Shown here in pieces: positions 2,726-11,060 of a stretch of DNA of 11,060 bases (position 1 is the stretch's first letter; the number at the start of each line of letters is the position of its first letter). The notes under the pieces were generated by a model, which had not been told where the DNA came from, did no database searches, and saw only the letters and a list, made by a program, of their open reading frames with translations. Source of the DNA: Planctomycetota bacterium (GTDB taxonomy: Bacteria; Planctomycetota; UBA1135; UBA2386); assembly GCA_003235605.1 (NCBI GenBank), contig QJVU01000391.1, positions 1 to 11,060 on the forward strand. Direction: 5' to 3'. The translations under genes and the position numbers were made by a program.

Positions 2726-3038
2726 GAGTTTCGTGCTTGCTTCAGCGCGTGGCTATGGCGGCGACCGGCCACGGGGACCCGGCGCGTTGCCGGATCCACC
2801 GACTCTCATAGACCCGGCCCCCGTTGCCAGTAACACCGGCGAGAGACCCCACGAGGGAGCGAAACTGCTCACGTCCCCGCTGCTGCTTCCCTGAACACGG
2901 AAACTCGCCGGGCTCGCCTCCCTGTTACGCAATCCTGGATACGCAATCCTGCGTAGGGTCTGCCCGCATCACCGCGGGTGCCGGGGGGAAACCAATGCTC
3001 GTCTCCAGCCCCTGAGGCCCTTGGTAGGGCGGGCAACA
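2726..3038. other. Divergent intergenic region, probably holding promoters for both flanking genes
   Basis: These roughly 310 bases separate two genes that point away from each other, so promoters for both must lie here or just inside the genes. I see no convincing gene; the 76-codon minus-strand frame (2869-3099) and short plus frames have no recognisable protein character. No clear -35/-10 pair can be picked out in this GC-rich sequence. The main structure is a tandem direct repeat with an overlapping inverted repeat at 2926-2955, annotated separately. If the plus-strand gene really starts at the internal ATG at 3144, the spacer would extend about 100 bases further. Confidence 0.6.
2926..2955. 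repeat. Tandem 12-base direct repeat with overlapping hairpin-type inverted repeat; candidate operator
   Basis: TACGCAATCCTG occurs at 2926-2937 and again at 2940-2951, a 14-base period. The second copy runs into CGTA, so that TACGCA-ATCC-TGCGTA (2940-2955) is a six-base inverted repeat with a four-base centre. It lies about 85-110 bases before the proposed ATG of the dioxygenase-cupin gene, in a region that must contain promoters. This suits a repressor or activator site, but no regulator gene is in the window, and chance duplication is possible. Confidence 0.4.
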
Positions 3039-5114
3039 ATGTTAGTATTCGTTCACCCTTACCTCGTCGACTCCCTTCGTGAGTTCGCTGTGTGCTCATC
3101 GCGGCGGGGTCACGACAGTGTTGCTCCAGTCCTCATCTTGCTCATGACAGCCGGGAACCACTCACACAACACGTCCGCGGGAGTCAGCCTTCGCGCAGAG
3201 TTCGAGACACAGGGGCTTATTGGACCCATCAAGGTCTTCGAACCGGCGGAATGTCGACAGATCCTCCAGGGCACACGCAGGAGTCCACCTCCGGACGTCT
3301 GGTTCAAGGGACACGCGGCTTCCTCCCGCGCGTTCTACGAACTGGCGACACGCACCGACATCCTCCACCGGGTTGCGCAGCTGCTCGGGGAGGACATCAT
3401 GCTCTGGGGGGCCTCCCTCATCGCCAAGCGTCCAGGGGAGGTTCATCAGTGGCATACCGACCTCGAGAGCTCCACGGCGACGAGCGCGGTCACTGTGTGG
3501 ATCGGTCTTGACAACACGAGCCGTCACTCGTCCTTGCATTTCATGGCACGCTCCCACCGGTTCGGCATCAGCGTTCAGCAGGTCGCCCACGAGGCCGGCA
3601 AGCGACGTGACGAGTTGCAGACCGAGGACCTGCTTCGTTGGGCGCGGGCACGTGATCCGCTCTGTCAGGTGGTGAGCTTCGACGTTGGCGATGGAGAGGC
3701 CGTCATGTTCGACGGCCGGCTCTGGCACGGGTCCAGAAACACCAGATCACGCGACACCAGAACCGCGCTGCTGCTGCAGTACGCGACTCCCGACACCGTG
3801 ATACGCATACCTGATCCGCGAAGCCACTATGAGTGGCCCTTCAGGTTCCTGGAACACCGCAAAGCACCATGCATCATGGTTCGGGGAACTGACCATCACG
3901 GCGTGAACAGAATCGTGGCGCCTCCGGATCCGGAGGGGACTCTGCAATCAACGAAGCGATCCATGAACACCCCGAATACCAATGCAATCTGGCCTTGCTG
4001 GATCAGCACATTGGAGCAAGCACCGGAAGAGATCAAGGCTACCGGCTGGAGCATCCATCCCGTTTTCGGCGGGTCGACCTCTTCCATGCAGGAGCTGCGC
4101 AGCCACTTCTCGGTTCTGAGTGCCGGGACGACTCCGCACCTTCCCCACACGCACGAGGACGAGGAGCTGATCGTCGTGCTGTCCGGCGAAGTCGACATCG
4201 TGACAGTCTCGGACACTCCCTCGCGGACCGTGGCCACCAAGCGAATCGCCTCGGGCTCGGTGGTGTACCATTCCTCGAACCAGTGTCACACGATTCGCAG
4301 CGTCGGGCCCGGAGCCGCGACCTATCTGATCTTCAAGTGGAAGAGCGAGGCCAGGCCAGACCGTGGCTCAGTGTTGCAGTCCTCGGTGTTCGACGCCCGG
4401 GCGACTGCAATGGCCCCGAAGTCCCAGCTCGCAAGAGGGTTCAGCTGCGTTCCAGTCCTTGACTCGCCGACTCTCTACCTCACGAAGCTGCACTGCCATA
4501 TCAGCACGTTGCAGCCGGGGGCCGGCTACGCGCCGCACCGCGACCCTTACGATGTGGCAATCGTCGTCCTCAGCGGCGCAGTCGAAACCCTCGGCCAACG
4601 CGTGGGTCGGAATGGTGTCATCTTCTATCCCGCCGGTGAGTTGCATGGCATGCAGAACAGTGGGACCAGTCCGGCTACCTATCTTGTCTTCGAATTCCAC
4701 GGCGACCCGGACCGCGCGCCAGGCCGATCAGAGACCAGTCCGGAAACAATCCAGTGGCAGGAGCAATGCGCCTCCGCTGCGAAGGAACTTGCCACACTGG
4801 CGCCCGACCAGGCCACGTTCATCCTGGTGGACGACGGTCGACTGCGGGGATGTGGCCCCTTTCAGGGCTTCCAGGCGATTCCTTTTCTCGAGCGTGGCGG
4901 TCAGTACTGGGGTCGGCCCAGCGACGACGAAACGGCGAATCGAGAGCTGGAACGCTTGCGCGACGATGGCGCGCGTCTCATCGTCTTTGCCTGGCCCGCA
5001 TTCTGGTGGCTCGATCACTACGCGGGCTTCGAACGGTACCTGCGATCTCACTTCGCCTGCGTGTGCGAGAGCGACAACCTGGTCGCTTTCGACCTCGAGA
5101 AACCGCCCAGCTAG
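3039..5114 (+). CDS. PhyH-like Fe(II)/2-oxoglutarate dioxygenase fused to two cupins and a module shared with the neighbouring glycosyltransferase
   Basis: With the ATG at 3039 the protein has 691 residues and four parts. (1) About residues 50-290 are a phytanoyl-CoA-dioxygenase-like hydroxylase: HTD (His139, Asp141) and WHGS (His230) supply the iron triad, and Arg241 is placed to bind 2-oxoglutarate. (2) A first cupin (about 320-440) has an intact metal motif: HTH (370, 372), Glu376, and a later His417. (3) A second cupin (about 450-555) has HRD instead of HxH and lacks the Glu in motif 1, but keeps motif 2 as PAGELHGMQN. (4) Residues 594-686 repeat the N-terminal module of the convergent glycosyltransferase. 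The protein looks cytosolic. Its substrate is unknown; hydroxylation of a sugar or glycan precursor is an inference from the neighbour. GGTAGGGCGGG lies five bases before the ATG; the first 50 residues look atypical, so the start could be the ATG at 3144. Confidence 0.85.
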   Translation: MLVFVHPYLVDSLREFAVCSSRRGHDSVAPVLILLMTAGNHSHNTSAGVSLRAEFETQGLIGPIKVFEPAECRQILQGTRRSPPPDVWFKGHAASSRAFYELATRTDILHRVAQLLGEDIMLWGASLIAKRPGEVHQWHTDLESSTATSAVTVWIGLDNTSRHSSLHFMARSHRFGISVQQVAHEAGKRRDELQTEDLLRWARARDPLCQVVSFDVGDGEAVMFDGRLWHGSRNTRSRDTRTALLLQYATPDTVIRIPDPRSHYEWPFRFLEHRKAPCIMVRGTDHHGVNRIVAPPDPEGTLQSTKRSMNTPNTNAIWPCWISTLEQAPEEIKATGWSIHPVFGGSTSSMQELRSHFSVLSAGTTPHLPHTHEDEELIVVLSGEVDIVTVSDTPSRTVATKRIASGSVVYHSSNQCHTIRSVGPGAATYLIFKWKSEARPDRGSVLQSSVFDARATAMAPKSQLARGFSCVPVLDSPTLYLTKLHCHISTLQPGAGYAPHRDPYDVAIVVLSGAVETLGQRVGRNGVIFYPAGELHGMQNSGTSPATYLVFEFHGDPDRAPGRSETSPETIQWQEQCASAAKELATLAPDQATFILVDDGRLRGCGPFQGFQAIPFLERGGQYWGRPSDDETANRELERLRDDGARLIVFAWPAFWWLDHYAGFERYLRSHFACVCESDNLVAFDLEKPPS
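5111..5114. other. Overlapping stop codons of convergent genes (shared CTAG)
   Basis: The plus-strand dioxygenase-cupin gene ends with TAG at 5112-5114 and the minus-strand glycosyltransferase ends with TAG at 5113-5111. Both stops are read from the palindrome CTAG. There is no intergenic DNA, so any terminator for either gene must lie inside the other gene's coding sequence. Confidence 0.9.
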
Positions 5115-6487
5115 GTCCGCGGCTGATCTGGTTTCGGCCCCCGCATCAAGCCAAGGTCAACCAGAACCTGGCTGCCCGTGTATTCCCTCGATCGTTCGGA
5201 GTATGGGTTCAGCTCCGGACACTCCCCCAGCCGCTTCAGATACGCGCGCGGCTCCTCGGATCTCCTGAACTTGTTCCCCGTTCTGACCTCTTGCCCGACC
5301 TTCTCTACGAAATCCGAGAAGAACCTGAAGTGTAGGAGCGCACCCTGGAAGCCCGACAGCCTGATTTCCGGCTTCAGGGAGTGATTGCTGCACCAGAAGC
5401 GCATCCCCGGCTTCCATCGCACCAGCGCTATCTTGCTGAGCACCGGAGGCAGGCCCCCTCCGTTCTCGTAGAAGACCCGCTTCCTCATGCCACCCCTGAC
5501 CATTTGCCTCGGGCTCGCGTCGTTGATCCGTACGCTGGCGGTCTCGTAGCCTTCACCATCGAAGAACCGACAGCTGCTCAGGAACGGGTCGCCGCGGCGA
5601 TACTCCACGTCGGAAATCGAACTGTTCGCGTACATGTCGATGAGTATCGAGAGCACGCCATCGACACCCGCGGCATCCAGTCTTGCTCCGTATGCATCGA
5701 GCCGCAGTGACTCGCACTCTGGATAGACGAACAGCTCGTCAGCATCGATGACCAGACACCACCGCCCCTCCCCGTACCTGTCGAGGAGCACATTGTACCA
5801 CTTCGCGCCTGCATCGCATTTTGCCAGCGGCAGATCCGAAAAGAAGCAGGTCACATCCCGCTGTTTCAGGAGCCACTCCCTGGTGCCGTCATTGGAGTCG
5901 TTGTCGACTACGAAGAAATGATGCACGCCCAGCTGTCTATGGTACTCGAGGCAGTAAGGCAGGCGCAACATCTCGTTCCTCACCTTCATGAAGGCCGCGA
6001 CCAAACCCGGTCGGAGGTCCTTCGGCTCCTCGTTCAGGCGCGTGAGTCTCAGCGATGCAAGATCATCGCGCGACTTGTCTCGCCACCGTGAACGGTCCTC
6101 AGCGCTCGCCAACAGATCAAAAAGGACAAGCGTGTCGTCGTCGAGGACGCACCGGTAGTGTGATCTCAAGTGCTCCCTCAGCCCCGAGTAGTAGTCGAGC
6201 CACCAGAACGCTGGCTGGCAAAACACCACATGCGAGGCTCCTCGAGCCCGCAACCGCTCCACCTCACGTATCGCAGTCTCGTCGTCGGGCGGAGGTCCCC
6301 AGTAGCTGCCGCCGCGCTCCATGAACGGGTAGAAGCTGCGGGTTCGCAACTTTGCATGTGAATGTAGCCGAGCCTCGTCCACCAGGACGAACCTGCAGCC
6401 GGGAGGAATCCGCTCGCAGACAGCAGCAGCGATAGCGTCGTAGACGCGCAGTGCTTCCGACCCGGCCCCTTCCATGTCGAGGACCAT
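5111..6487 (-). CDS. Glycosyltransferase (GT-A fold, Glyco_tranf_2_4 type) with an N-terminal module shared with the convergent gene
   Basis: From the ATG at 6487 the protein has 458 residues. Residues 33-125 form the shared module, with ERGGSYWG, PDDETA and PAFWWLDYY as its signature. Residues from about 160 to the end are a GT-A glycosyltransferase of the kind matched by Glyco_tranf_2_4. It shows the early VRNEMLRLPYCLEYHR segment, then VDNDSNDGTREWL and the metal/nucleotide-sugar motif IDADELFVYP (Asp248, Asp250). A DMYAN segment and a C-terminal LVDLGLM complete it. These enzymes move a sugar from a nucleotide sugar to a glycan, lipid or protein acceptor. No signal peptide or membrane helix is seen, so it should act in the cytoplasm. 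It lies 96 bases behind the 7TM/ATP-grasp gene on the same strand. The start is uncertain: GTG at 6508 or ATG at 6475 are possible, and none has a good ribosome binding site. Confidence 0.88.
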   Translation of the reverse strand: MVLDMEGAGSEALRVYDAIAAAVCERIPPGCRFVLVDEARLHSHAKLRTRSFYPFMERGGSYWGPPPDDETAIREVERLRARGASHVVFCQPAFWWLDYYSGLREHLRSHYRCVLDDDTLVLFDLLASAEDRSRWRDKSRDDLASLRLTRLNEEPKDLRPGLVAAFMKVRNEMLRLPYCLEYHRQLGVHHFFVVDNDSNDGTREWLLKQRDVTCFFSDLPLAKCDAGAKWYNVLLDRYGEGRWCLVIDADELFVYPECESLRLDAYGARLDAAGVDGVLSILIDMYANSSISDVEYRRGDPFLSSCRFFDGEGYETASVRINDASPRQMVRGGMRKRVFYENGGGLPPVLSKIALVRWKPGMRFWCSNHSLKPEIRLSGFQGALLHFRFFSDFVEKVGQEVRTGNKFRRSEEPRAYLKRLGECPELNPYSERSREYTGSQVLVDLGLMRGPKPDQPRT

Positions 6488-6583
6488 CGTAGCCCGCACA
6501 CCGTACACCGCGCGTCCGTCATGGACAAGGGCTCCGGCCGTCGCAGGCCACGCAGAGGCCAGGCTTCCGCAGAGGCGGATGAA

Positions 6584-8512
6584 CTACACGACCATCTCTA
6601 CTGGCAGTGCACGAGAAGGGCCATCCGCGACCCGCTCCGTCTGGGACCAGTACCTCGCTCCAGCGACATCCAGGATGCGGCACATCAATGACTGGAAGGA
6701 GTAGCCGGCATGCTCCGCAGAGTACACGTAGGACCCGCCGGCGCCGAGTGAGGCCATCGAGTTGATCTCGAGGACGTAAGGGGTCCCTTCCGCGTCGACG
6801 CGGAAGTCGACCCTCGCGTAGTCACGGCAGTGGCAGGCACGAAAGCACGCAATGGCCAGCTCTTCCAGCCGCTTCTTCAAGGCCGGCTCCAGTGTAGGAA
6901 CGAGCTTCTGCGGCTCGTTGGACGTCTTGTGGTACTTGTCCTCCAACGTGAAGGCCTTGACCCGCTGGTCCGGGTACGCCAACTCGACGATAGGCAACAC
7001 CTCGACGGGATCATTGCCCAGCAAGGACACCGCAAATTCACGCCCATCGATGAACTCTTCCACCAGCGCGCCCTGCTCGAACTTCTCGGTGACGGACTTG
7101 ACCGCAACGGCAAGCTCATGCGGGTTGTTGACGACGTGCAGTCCATGGCTCGTCGACTCGTGGCGCGGCTTGACGATCAGAGGATAGCGCAGGTCGCCGG
7201 CATCGTCGTCCGGACTGTGCATCACCTTGAACGCCGGGGTCGGGATGCCTGCGTCACGGATGAGGATCTTGGTCACGACCTTGTCCAGCGCAAGGGCATG
7301 CCCGAAGGGATCCGAGCCGGTGTACGGCACCCCGGCCATTTCCAGCATTCCGGGAACATGCGTGTAGCGCGCGTTGCCCTGGATGCCATATGCCATGTTG
7401 AAGACGATGACGGGAGAACGGCTCTTGTCCTCGGCCTCGACGTACGCTTTCAGCTCGGGCAACATGCTCATGTCCCCCTCGAAGAGGCGGGTCTCTACCC
7501 CTGCTTTCTCGAAAGCCTCGACAACCCGCTGGACCGATCGCTTGCCGTAGGTCTCGGGGCACTGCCGCCCGACCTGATCGATGACACCGTGCCGACTCTG
7601 GTTCCTTACCACTGCTACACGCGGAGCGAAGCCAGCTGGCGCGCTGGGGGCTCCTCCGTTCGTGTGGGAACCGACCAGTCGCAGCGGCCAGACGCGCTCG
7701 GATACACTGTTTCCGCCGGCGTGCGCCGCTTGCTCAGGCTGCTGCGTTTCCTGCGCCTGCTGGGGAGATACGGGTTCCGGGTTGAATCTCTCGAGCAGTC
7801 GCAGATCCAGGTACTTGGCCAGCACGACGATGCAGGCAAGCTGCAGGACCACGAGCTCCGGTGCGTTTCTCAGAGTCTCTTTCAGGCCAGGAGTGCGCGC
7901 GATCAGCGCAATGAGCACGGCCAGCACTGTTGTCGTGGCGCCACGCCATAGAGCCGAACGCATCCCCTCCCGGGAGATCTTGTTCAGGATCCCATCTGCC
8001 AGCAGGCAGAGCGCGATGATCGGGAAGTACGCAACCTTCCGGATCGAGTGGATCTCCAAGAGCGACGCAAAGAGGACCGAGAAGGCAATCGTCCCGGAGA
8101 TGACACCGAGGATGAACGAGACGCGAGCGAAGTAGGGCAGGCGTACCTGCTTCAACCACGGACGGACTGCCGCCACGACTCCGAGCACCACCACCAGGAA
8201 CACCAGGCCCAAGCCAATGCCCGCGACCTGGAAGGCGACAGCCAGCAGGATCGAGCGGAACGGACCGAGCAGCCGGATTCCGAAGGTCAGCCGCGCCATC
8301 ACGACGAGCAAGGCTCCAAAAGGAAGGAACATGGCGTGATAGAGGGCGCGCTGCACGTCCTTGGGTGCCCCGTTCAGGGAGAAGTGCTGCTCCAGGAAGT
8401 CGGCAGTCGGCGCGCCGGGCAACCGGCCCAGCAGCATGAGAAGAGGAAGTCCGGCCAGCAGGCCGAGGATCCAAAGATGAGAAGACGAGAGTCGGTGGGT
8501 CGGTTGGGTCAT
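6584..8512 (-). CDS. Seven-helix membrane domain fused to a D-Ala-D-Ala-ligase-like ATP-grasp enzyme
   Basis: A 642-residue two-part protein. Residues 12-245 hold about seven hydrophobic helices in a pattern like the 7TM_transglut domain, which elsewhere is attached to inactive transglutaminases beside ATP-grasp ligases. A Gln/Ala/Pro-rich linker (about 246-295) follows. Residues 297-620 are an ATP-grasp domain close in layout to D-alanine-D-alanine ligase: VFNMAYGIQG (369-379), GVPYTGSDPFGHALALDK, the ATP lysine in VKPR (448), the loop STSHG, EEFIDG (485-490), and the metal-binding residues Asp569, Glu582 and Asn584 in DYARVDFR and VLEINSMAS. The active site looks intact, so it should join a carboxylate to an amine with ATP, at the membrane. 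The substrate is unknown, and it is probably not the housekeeping peptidoglycan ligase. The ATG at 8512 is chosen because the helices begin just after it; the 73 codons upstream look non-coding. Confidence 0.85.
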   Translation of the reverse strand: MTQPTHRLSSSHLWILGLLAGLPLLMLLGRLPGAPTADFLEQHFSLNGAPKDVQRALYHAMFLPFGALLVVMARLTFGIRLLGPFRSILLAVAFQVAGIGLGLVFLVVVLGVVAAVRPWLKQVRLPYFARVSFILGVISGTIAFSVLFASLLEIHSIRKVAYFPIIALCLLADGILNKISREGMRSALWRGATTTVLAVLIALIARTPGLKETLRNAPELVVLQLACIVVLAKYLDLRLLERFNPEPVSPQQAQETQQPEQAAHAGGNSVSERVWPLRLVGSHTNGGAPSAPAGFAPRVAVVRNQSRHGVIDQVGRQCPETYGKRSVQRVVEAFEKAGVETRLFEGDMSMLPELKAYVEAEDKSRSPVIVFNMAYGIQGNARYTHVPGMLEMAGVPYTGSDPFGHALALDKVVTKILIRDAGIPTPAFKVMHSPDDDAGDLRYPLIVKPRHESTSHGLHVVNNPHELAVAVKSVTEKFEQGALVEEFIDGREFAVSLLGNDPVEVLPIVELAYPDQRVKAFTLEDKYHKTSNEPQKLVPTLEPALKKRLEELAIACFRACHCRDYARVDFRVDAEGTPYVLEINSMASLGAGGSYVYSAEHAGYSFQSLMCRILDVAGARYWSQTERVADGPSRALPVEMVV

Positions 8513-8754
8513 GAGTCGGTTTCCGGTTGCATGGATGGGCCACTGACGTCGGACCGTAACAACCGTATCACCCGTCTCCGGGCCGGCAGGTTTTTTTGGG
8601 TCTGGCCTCCCGGCCCTCTGGTCTGCGACTCCCACCGGCCCACGGCATGGCAATCTTGCTCGCAGGATGCCAGGCTCAAAACGCGAAACCTGCTGCAATG
8701 TCCCGGGGCGAGCGCCGCCGCCGGAGCCCATGGCCCGTCAGGACGCCGCAGCAG
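8513..8754. other. Intergenic spacer between the CotH-like and 7TM/ATP-grasp genes
   Basis: The 242 bases hold no convincing gene. The main structure is an inverted repeat: GGGCCGG at 8580-8586 pairs with CCGGCCC at 8610-8616. After a one-base mismatch AGG (8588-8590) pairs with CCT (8606-8608), leaving a loop that contains seven T on the plus strand. The T-run is in the loop and not after the stem, so it is not a standard terminator for either strand. The spacer is long enough for a separate promoter for the 7TM/ATP-grasp gene. Confidence 0.45.
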
Positions 8755-11060
8755 TCACCGGGCCTGCTGGGCCGGCCGTCGTGCCCGTCGCATGGTCGTC
8801 GCGTAGAGCGCTCGCACGTCGAGGTCGATCGGCTCGATCGGCACGTCGCCAAGTCGCAGCATGCTCCCCTTCTGGACCACAGCGAGCTCGGGGACGTCCT
8901 TTTGCGTGATGTGTTCGGCTTCCAGCAGCGCGCCGCCGAACTCGGGCTTCTTGGTGTAGGCCATGAGGGCTGCCAGGTGCACCCCGGTCAGCTTCGCAGA
9001 CTCGATTCTCAAGTACGAACGGTCCTTGCTGACTGCACCCACCTGGGCGTCCTCCACCTCGATTCCGGTCACGTGGATCATGCTGCGCTCACCGACCGAG
9101 ATCGCCTTGTCTCCGATCCCGAAGAACCGCGTTCCCGAGATCGTTGCGCGCGCTCCGGAGAAGTCCAGCCCGTCGCCACCGCCAGCCTTGCCGATGTTGG
9201 TGAGCGTACCACCGCGAACTGTCCCGTGCCCGAAGTCGACATCGATCCCGTCGGAGGACGCACCGCTCACGTCCACGTCGACGAGCTCGAACGCGGTTCG
9301 GATGAGGTTCAAGGCGTCTTCGGCGGTGTTGTCCGCGAACTGGCAGTTCTGGATCGTGACCTTGCCTTCGTAGAGGCTGACCCCGCCGGTCAGATGCCAG
9401 TCCGGGAAGTCGACGCCGCTCGTTCCACACACCTGGACGTGTGACCAATTCGCCCTGTTGTCCGAGTTGAACACGGCGACACCCCGCCAGGGGAGCGACC
9501 GCTGATCACCACGGCCGCGCAGCACCACCGGCTTGGCTGCTGTGCCCAGGAACGACGAGGGGCCTCGCAGAATCAGTGCAGCGTCGGACTCGAAGCGCAG
9601 CTCGGTACCCGGCCGAAGCACGAGACGGATACCTGCCGGCAGCGAGATCGTCCCGGAGACATCCCAGACACCGGGTTTTGCGCTGACTGTCTTGGTCCGC
9701 GGATCGAAGTCGAGGAAGTCGTGGGCCGCTGCCGCATCCAGGGACCCGGGTGGGATCGGAATCTGCCGGCGCGGCGGGAAGTACCTCCTGGGCCGCACCC
9801 AGGCGCCTCCGTGGACACCTTCCGCCGACAGATGCACGCGCTCGACCCCGTCGGACTCCCCGACGCTGATCTTCACCGTTGCCGGCAACGCACCCAACGC
9901 AGTGGGTGGAAGCACCGCCAGGACCCGGAATCCTCCCCCGGCTGTCCGTTCCTTGCTGGCCGCCCTCACGGTCACCGGGAAGTTGACGAGGTTCTGCATC
10001 TCCAGATGACGTTCCCCGCCCTCGGCAACCACGTGCACCAGGGCCAGGTCTCGTGCCTTGAACAGGTGCGCCGGCAGCTCTGGGCGAGGCTGGGAGGCAT
10101 CGATGTGTGGATCGAACCGGACCCGCTGAATCGGGTCGTCGCCGATGGACTGCCGCGCCTTCTCTGCAAGAGCGGGGAGATCAATCGGTTTCAGGAACGG
10201 CCACGAGCGGTGCAGGACACCCAGGTACTGTCGCTGCCGCTCGGACAGCAGCTGCCCGGGGAGATTCTCCGGCACGGATTCCGCGATTGCCGTGAGGGTC
10301 GTCGTGTAGTGCCTGCGGATGTCCCTGTCTGCCAGAAGCCTGGCATGAAGCGGCTCCGGAGTATGCGCGTCGACATAGAGCAACTCGGCGTCATAGGCGA
10401 TGGGCTCCAATCGGGCCGTGATGGGGTTGTAGTAGAAACGGATGTTCCGCCAGCTCGCCGCATGCCATGCGCCCCACACCTGGGCCAGCGCCATGAACTG
10501 GCCCATCCGCTTCGCATCGAAGACTTCCGACGGCCTCAGGAGCCCCTCCAGGAAGCCCCTGTACAGGCCCATCGCCACCCGGAGGTCGCCCTGCAGGACG
10601 GGGTTCTTGAGGACACGACTGGAGCGGAACGGCATCAGCTCGCTCGCCATGAAGTTGTTGAACGGGCTTGCGAACCGATCCTCCCTTTCTCCGAGAGCGA
10701 AGAAGCGTGACTCGTCGAGCTTCAGGATGACGCCATCGCGTCGGTTCTGAGACTCGAGCAGCTCCCTCGAGAAATGCTCCTCGATGGCCATGATCCCGAG
10801 ATCGTCGCCGTTCAGGCTCACCCGCACGAACATGTACCGGGGCGCGAGGATGCCAAGATGGCGCACGTGGTCCAGGAACAACGGTTCCGCGTGGAAGTTG
10901 CGCGCCACAGGCGGATGGAGATTGAAACGCCGCATGCCAAAGACATGGTCATCACCCTTGACGTGCACGCGGAACGACCAGCTCTCCGTAGTGAACTGGC
11001 CAGCCGGCAGGTCACCCTTCAGCCGCAGCTCCACGCGCACCGCGCGATCCTGGAGCCTGA
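8755..11060 (-). CDS. CotH-like kinase fused to a right-handed beta-helix (N-terminus beyond window)
   Basis: The frame is open to the right edge, at least 767 residues, and the true start is outside the window. The first 300 residues resemble CotH-family atypical kinases: RRFNLHPP, the LGILAPRYMFVRVSLNGDDLG stretch (split here: LGILAPRYMF, then VSLNGDDLGIMAIEEH), GVILKLDE, and the metal/catalytic region WRNIRFYYNP and LEPIAYDAE, where the Asn and Asp fit the CotH metal ligands. CotH enzymes phosphorylate proteins; some relatives may act on other polymers. Residues about 440-740 are a parallel beta-helix: short strands with the recurring G-x-x-L/I/V and N-x-x-F patterns (TIQNCQFADNTAEDALNL, ISGTRFFGIGDKAISVG), ending in a basic tail. 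Beta-helices of this kind usually bind or cleave polysaccharide; no lyase motif is clear. It precedes the 7TM/ATP-grasp gene by 242 bases on the same strand. Export is likely but the signal region is not visible. Confidence 0.85.
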   Translation of the reverse strand, partial: RLQDRAVRVELRLKGDLPAGQFTTESWSFRVHVKGDDHVFGMRRFNLHPPVARNFHAEPLFLDHVRHLGILAPRYMFVRVSLNGDDLGIMAIEEHFSRELLESQNRRDGVILKLDESRFFALGEREDRFASPFNNFMASELMPFRSSRVLKNPVLQGDLRVAMGLYRGFLEGLLRPSEVFDAKRMGQFMALAQVWGAWHAASWRNIRFYYNPITARLEPIAYDAELLYVDAHTPEPLHARLLADRDIRRHYTTTLTAIAESVPENLPGQLLSERQRQYLGVLHRSWPFLKPIDLPALAEKARQSIGDDPIQRVRFDPHIDASQPRPELPAHLFKARDLALVHVVAEGGERHLEMQNLVNFPVTVRAASKERTAGGGFRVLAVLPPTALGALPATVKISVGESDGVERVHLSAEGVHGGAWVRPRRYFPPRRQIPIPPGSLDAAAAHDFLDFDPRTKTVSAKPGVWDVSGTISLPAGIRLVLRPGTELRFESDAALILRGPSSFLGTAAKPVVLRGRGDQRSLPWRGVAVFNSDNRANWSHVQVCGTSGVDFPDWHLTGGVSLYEGKVTIQNCQFADNTAEDALNLIRTAFELVDVDVSGASSDGIDVDFGHGTVRGGTLTNIGKAGGGDGLDFSGARATISGTRFFGIGDKAISVGERSMIHVTGIEVEDAQVGAVSKDRSYLRIESAKLTGVHLAALMAYTKKPEFGGALLEAEHITQKDVPELAVVQKGSMLRLGDVPIEPIDLDVRALYATTMRRARRPAQQAR

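Follow-up and report, generated by a model that had tools for sequence, protein, structure and literature searches.

A portable module on unrelated enzymes of bacterial gene clusters resembles the dome of GT-C glycosyltransferases

Two unrelated enzymes encoded side by side in an 11,060-nucleotide stretch of a Planctomycetota genome (contig QJVU01000391.1 of assembly GCA_003235605.1; the whole stretch is called the window) carry the same protein module, which recurs on enzymes of many kinds in gene clusters of numerous bacterial phyla. Structure comparison, weak profile matches and HHalign lend fairly good support to its homology with the "dome", the soluble C-terminal domain of membrane GT-C glycosyltransferases; this relation was not foreseen by the first-pass annotation of the window. 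We propose, at a probability of about 0.5, that the module is a detached GT-C-type dome, a portable part of about 120 amino acids that would act as a common recruiting tag on soluble enzymes. The analysis shows that the domain is shared, occurs across enzyme types, clusters, has a predicted fold and matches GT-C domes in profile comparison; ligand binding, the identity of the ligand and recruitment are what we infer. The proposal is made because the dome of CeDPY19 contacts the acceptor, the loops of the module are conserved and module proteins look soluble.

Two module copies in the window

The first-pass annotation had noticed a 93-residue module at the end of one gene and the start of its convergent neighbour. 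Translation bears this out: the stretches encoded at 4818-5096 (plus) and 6391-6113 (minus) align without gaps, are identical at 52 of 93 residues (169 of 279 nucleotides at the DNA level) and have the described blocks in common. The claim that the module sits on two unrelated enzyme types on opposite strands likewise holds, since Pfam identifies a PhyH dioxygenase with cupin domains on the plus strand and a PF13704 glycosyltransferase on the minus strand. The two genes converge, their stop codons overlapping at 5111-5114 in the ORF (open reading frame) map, and the module copies lie about 1 kb apart.

3021-5114, plus strand: PhyH (2-oxoglutarate) dioxygenase with two cupin stretches and a C-terminal module (ORF; PF05721 at 61-249; Cupin_2 in two stretches)
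4743-5108, plus strand: module copy 1, about 122 amino acids, C-terminal (profile match, E 2.5e-37)
4884-4925, plus strand: loop beta2-alpha3 of copy 1, FLERGGQYWGRPSD, among the most conserved stretches (mapped from model and alignment A2)
4992-5021, plus strand: WPAFWWLDHY segment of copy 1, beta3-alpha4 (alignment)
5111-6508, minus strand: N-terminal module and family 2 glycosyltransferase (ORF; PF13704, E 3.3e-27, at 177-270)
6101-6466, minus strand: module copy 2, about 122 amino acids, N-terminal (profile match, E 1.9e-37; AlphaFold2)
6284-6325, minus strand: loop beta2-alpha3 of copy 2, FMERGGSYWGPPPD (mapped from model and alignment A2)
6188-6217, minus strand: QPAFWWLDYY segment of copy 2, beta3-alpha4 (alignment)

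An iterated profile started from the two copies found the module in all 225 sequences examined, namely 223 listed proteins, including the window's own two, and the two window ORFs; the similarity of the copies is more than chance. The 223 distinct proteins combine the best 120 of 238 and the best 120 of 353 matches from protein searches with the module region (a further list of the best 120 of 312 matches was also used), and because they were chosen via shared 5-residue words the sample leans toward close relatives. The conserved unit reaches about 25 residues further upstream than originally seen, taking in a helix and "IPPG", so that the folded domain measures about 120 amino acids. It runs from the helix through strand FILVD, PFLERDGQYWGPPPDDETAIRELERLR and FIVFAWPAFWWLDYY to two strands, and several of its positions are 99% identical across 233 modules. 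In total the 225 sequences hold 235 modules, with ten sequences bearing two. Most modules (216) end at most 40 residues from the C-terminus; 17 are internal, among them that of the window glycosyltransferase ORF, where the module begins at residue 40, and two start at most 40 residues from the N-terminus, in P0122 and in the database copy of the window glycosyltransferase, which has a later start. The N-terminal module of the window glycosyltransferase is thus an unusual exception.

Fold and relation to GT-C domes

No Pfam or NCBIfam model matched the window copies above its curated cut-off, the best being DUF3493 (E 0.0055; 17.3 bits versus 27.1 needed), and scans of further members (114 against Pfam, 55 against NCBIfam) returned weak single-member matches only. 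Alignment A2 holds 114 of 121 non-redundant modules (seven dropped by hand) drawn from 139 of the 140 found, and alignment A3 has 55 chosen rows. Weak sequence matches in the PDB (designed TIM barrels on one helix, a beta-mannanase and others) were taken as coincidence.

AlphaFold2 predicts an alpha/beta fold for copy 2 with high confidence (mean predicted local distance difference test score, pLDDT, 95.2; predicted template modelling score, pTM, 0.88), and the DPY19 dome was the best VIA match for both module models. HHalign of the module against PMT_2 C-termini gave 97.0% and 97.6%, while six remoter relatives ranged from 95.4 to 1.0%, against a maximum of 6.8% among 80 controls. Profile matches to PMT_2-type GT-C proteins were also obtained in genome surveys (E 4.4e-7, 1.8e-4 and 1.6e-6), all from one subfamily.

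Conservation is highest, with a mean of 2.60 bits, in the loop between beta2 and alpha3 and in the AFWWL region alike, and these two segments probably lie together at one edge of the sheet. Among the domes of DPY19, AglB/STT3, ArnT and PMT_2 proteins, the closest known counterparts of the module, that of DPY19 likewise has a conserved loop linking strand 2 to the helix after it; going by the order of elements, the two loops would correspond. According to the CeDPY19 study, the dome forms a lid above the active site and has a core conserved among GT-C enzymes, the acceptor sits in a groove against the dome, and loop beta2-alpha3 touches the acceptor and stabilises the donor (PMC10154233).

Unlike GT-C enzymes, however, the module has no membrane part and is joined to soluble enzymes of unrelated folds, and its own motifs PFxERxGxYWG and AFWWL are, by eye, missing from the three GT-C matches. 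Whole GT-C enzymes were not encountered: none of the 133 module ORFs has a multi-spanning catalytic domain before the module, and the partners are soluble enzyme families. By simple hydropathy, 118 of these ORFs contain no transmembrane-like segment and none contains three or more, so by their sequences module proteins look soluble and are probably cytoplasmic. The idea of a dome acting in trans on a dome-less membrane enzyme is unsupported, as at least six such segments occur in only five of 320 neighbouring ORFs by the same measure. A likeness of FWWLDYY to the WWDYG motif of oligosaccharyltransferases is not claimed either; the WW of the module comes after strand 3.

Partner enzymes and gene clusters

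The first-pass impression that similar modules end glycosyltransferases of polysaccharide-type clusters was correct, and sulfo-, methyl-, pyruvyl- and acetyltransferases of many phyla end likewise. Precomputed Pfam labels list as partners GT2, GT4, GT8, WbsX, class I methyltransferases, FkbM, sulfotransferases, pyruvyltransferases, PF13480 acetyltransferases, FAD monooxygenases, kinase-fold proteins and others, to which direct scans of selected module ORFs added PIG-L deacetylase, exostosin GT47, GT34, a short-chain dehydrogenase and further sulfotransferases. Neither a PhyH nor a cupin domain is listed for the other 221 of the 223 proteins, and the window therefore contributes a new partner type within the sample. 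Several module proteins have no second domain recognised at E 1e-5 (L022:1036-2034, L026:1467-3910, L041:9503-10699, L045:8996-10366, L053:9707-10825 and L081:5026-5997) and might represent new enzyme families. Two predicted proteins, whose contigs measure 1.49 Mb and 0.86 Mb, consist of the module only (P0280, 138 amino acids; P0282, 144 amino acids) and belong, together with the tandem double modules or module-only proteins of L039, L041, L045 and P0224, to a second subfamily.

A genome scan with alignment A1 yielded 53 loci from Cyanobacteria, Chloroflexi, Verrucomicrobia, Acidobacteria, Nitrospirae, Proteobacteria, Gemmatimonadetes, Planctomycetes, Actinobacteria, Armatimonadetes and others. 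A profile search located 140 modules in 52 of these loci plus the window, with at least two module ORFs in 41 of the 52. Adjacent module genes lie on one strand in 77 of 80 pairs (window included), the opposite-strand pairs being those of the window, L024 and L026. Of the 77 same-strand pairs, 49 have no more than 50 nt between the stop codon and the next first ATG, and 62 no more than 200 nt. Whole-genome searches, covering the genomes of 36 of the 53 loci, found one to eleven copies per genome. In 26 of 29 multi-copy genomes all copies fall within 21 kb of one contig, even where a cyanobacterial assembly spans 8 to 11 Mb; some Nostoc-type genomes have one cluster in common and are not independent. 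The module is rare across the surveyed phyla, with strong matches in 1/244 Cyanobacteria (the seed), 3/201 Chloroflexi, 4/199 Acidobacteria (seeds included) and 1/199 Planctomycetes (the seed), and each of the five non-seed carriers has at least two copies, at least two of them on the same contig. Ten weak cyanobacterial matches (E 0.001 to 0.1) were also returned, of which the six inspected were judged to be chance, and none of 21 pattern-matching stretches from viral contigs encodes a relative.

The most frequent neighbour, with 87 ORFs in 36 loci among the 320 neighbouring ORFs of at least 150 amino acids, is an untagged family of about 390 amino acids. PF13524 (GT-B-like) matched three of seven members scanned, one above cut-off, and from sequence this looks like an unannotated glycosyltransferase family; in several cyanobacterial loci two to four tandem copies precede the module genes (e.g. 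L004:1990-6759). Other recurrent neighbours, each annotated from one representative, are an ABC exporter, HlyD, MacB/FtsX proteins, a hexapeptide transferase, GT4 and GT2, a set that would fit an exported glycan or glycoconjugate. In the window none of these families was found among eight scanned ORFs (the scan left aside ORF 1-786) except the family 2 glycosyltransferase. The remaining window genes on the minus strand include a single ORF joining a 7TM_transglut-type membrane domain to a D-Ala-D-Ala ligase-like ATP-grasp domain (6584-8731; Pfam), a CotH kinase domain and after it a right-handed beta-helix region that stays below the Pfam cut-off, in a frame that reaches the window edge (8755-11040), a 393-amino-acid ORF with no Pfam match up to E 1 (1544-2725) and a small ORF with a MauE match below threshold (1009-1608).

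Proposed function and alternatives

Tags that recur on unrelated enzymes of single clusters fit a module that would bring enzymes to one substrate or complex, as the first-pass annotation had suggested. The conserved face of such a recruiting dome would be built from loop beta2-alpha3 (P-F-x-E-R-x-G-x-Y-W-G-x-P-x-D-D) and the A-F-W-W-L segment and would bind one ligand that the cluster has in common, the simplest candidate being the growing glycan or the carrier of that glycan. Binding of this shared ligand would keep the various transferases and tailoring enzymes together on one molecule, and in the window the dioxygenase-cupin protein and the glycosyltransferase would be brought to one substrate. 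More tentatively, an acceptor-handling dome may have been cut from membrane GT-C enzymes and turned into a cytoplasmic, cluster-specific address tag with which every tagged enzyme, regardless of its chemistry, grips the same glycan or carrier, giving a glycan assembly line addressed by tags, a scenario that we consider possible rather than likely. Two familiar systems offer partial parallels. Docking or carrier-type domains of assembly lines also place one domain, usually C-terminal, on many enzymes of one cluster, but they differ in fold and size, and the module has no known partner domain. Carbohydrate-binding modules are likewise promiscuous accessory domains with conserved aromatics on sugar-active enzymes, whereas the present module sits on biosynthetic transferases and has no Pfam match above cut-off.

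The most likely alternative, which we nevertheless regard as doubtful, is pure protein docking, homotypic or heterotypic, in which modules would bring the enzymes together by binding one another or a single scaffold protein, with no binding to the glycan. The same clustering evidence speaks for it, as do tandem modules and the short predicted proteins that consist of a module only; however, the most conserved residues are on loops, one of which touches the substrate in the DPY19 dome, and the annotated recurrent neighbour families include no scaffold-like protein, the commonest being the untagged GT-B-like one. That the module is instead a small enzyme domain (Rossmann-like, e.g. a transferase) working with each partner is quite unlikely given the weak single-member matches in the member scans and its union with many enzymes of differing chemistry.

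The history of the module bears on two further explanations. It might merely stabilise or fold its partners, with clusters arising as tagged genes spread by duplication and transfer. Nearest neighbours indeed share the partner type in 124 of 202 modules versus 76 expected from shuffling (double-module and unlabelled proteins left out), which points to partial co-inheritance of partner type and module sequence, and certain clusters hold one enzyme type. Such a role is unlikely, however, considering the very high conservation of the loops, the frequent occurrence of unrelated enzymes as cluster-mates and the 69 of 77 modules whose nearest relative lies outside their own cluster, i.e. in different module lineages. 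A cluster-mate is the nearest relative in the other eight of these 77, counted outside Nostoc-type loci (shuffled mean 1.6, maximum 7 in 1000), and in the closer subfamily the median module identity is 0.42 within loci versus 0.39 between them. Partner-type sharing and the few kin among cluster-mates therefore indicate partly stable tagged lineages that were mostly gathered into clusters, not copied in place. One locus, L080, carries six module-tagged sulfotransferases on one contig (10553-16689 and 1362-2720), five of them consecutive, and this set looks like duplication. For the window, the first-pass annotation had considered a recent event of local duplication and inversion, by which one gene would have given its module to the neighbour. 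The short distance between the copies, their 52 of 93 identical residues and an approximately unbiased (AU) test that did not reject a tree joining them as sisters (p-AU 0.348) are in favour of it, yet over 110 columns the copies are only 49% identical, below the median of each to modules elsewhere (54% and 51%), and both have closer relatives in other genomes (63% and 58%). Since each copy ranks only 200th and 141st of 232 by identity to the other, a recent duplication appears very unlikely and this explanation improbable overall. Neither copy belongs to a well-supported set in a poorly resolved 50-row tree (5 of 47 inner branches starred); an older duplication is conceivable, although nothing speaks for it.

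Implications

In the open-licence literature searched, we found no earlier description of the module and nothing relevant on its fusions or motif strings. The domain is real and unusual in being unannotated and promiscuous, and its proposed origin is plausible and testable. If the proposed function is true, a widespread tag marking the enzymes of one glycan pathway could delimit gene clusters with unknown products and would show how unrelated enzymes come to act on one glycan. It would also mean that a GT-C dome functions off the membrane, making its acceptor-handling role testable on a small soluble protein, and because no further domain is recognised in several of the module proteins, the tag would point to new enzymes as well.
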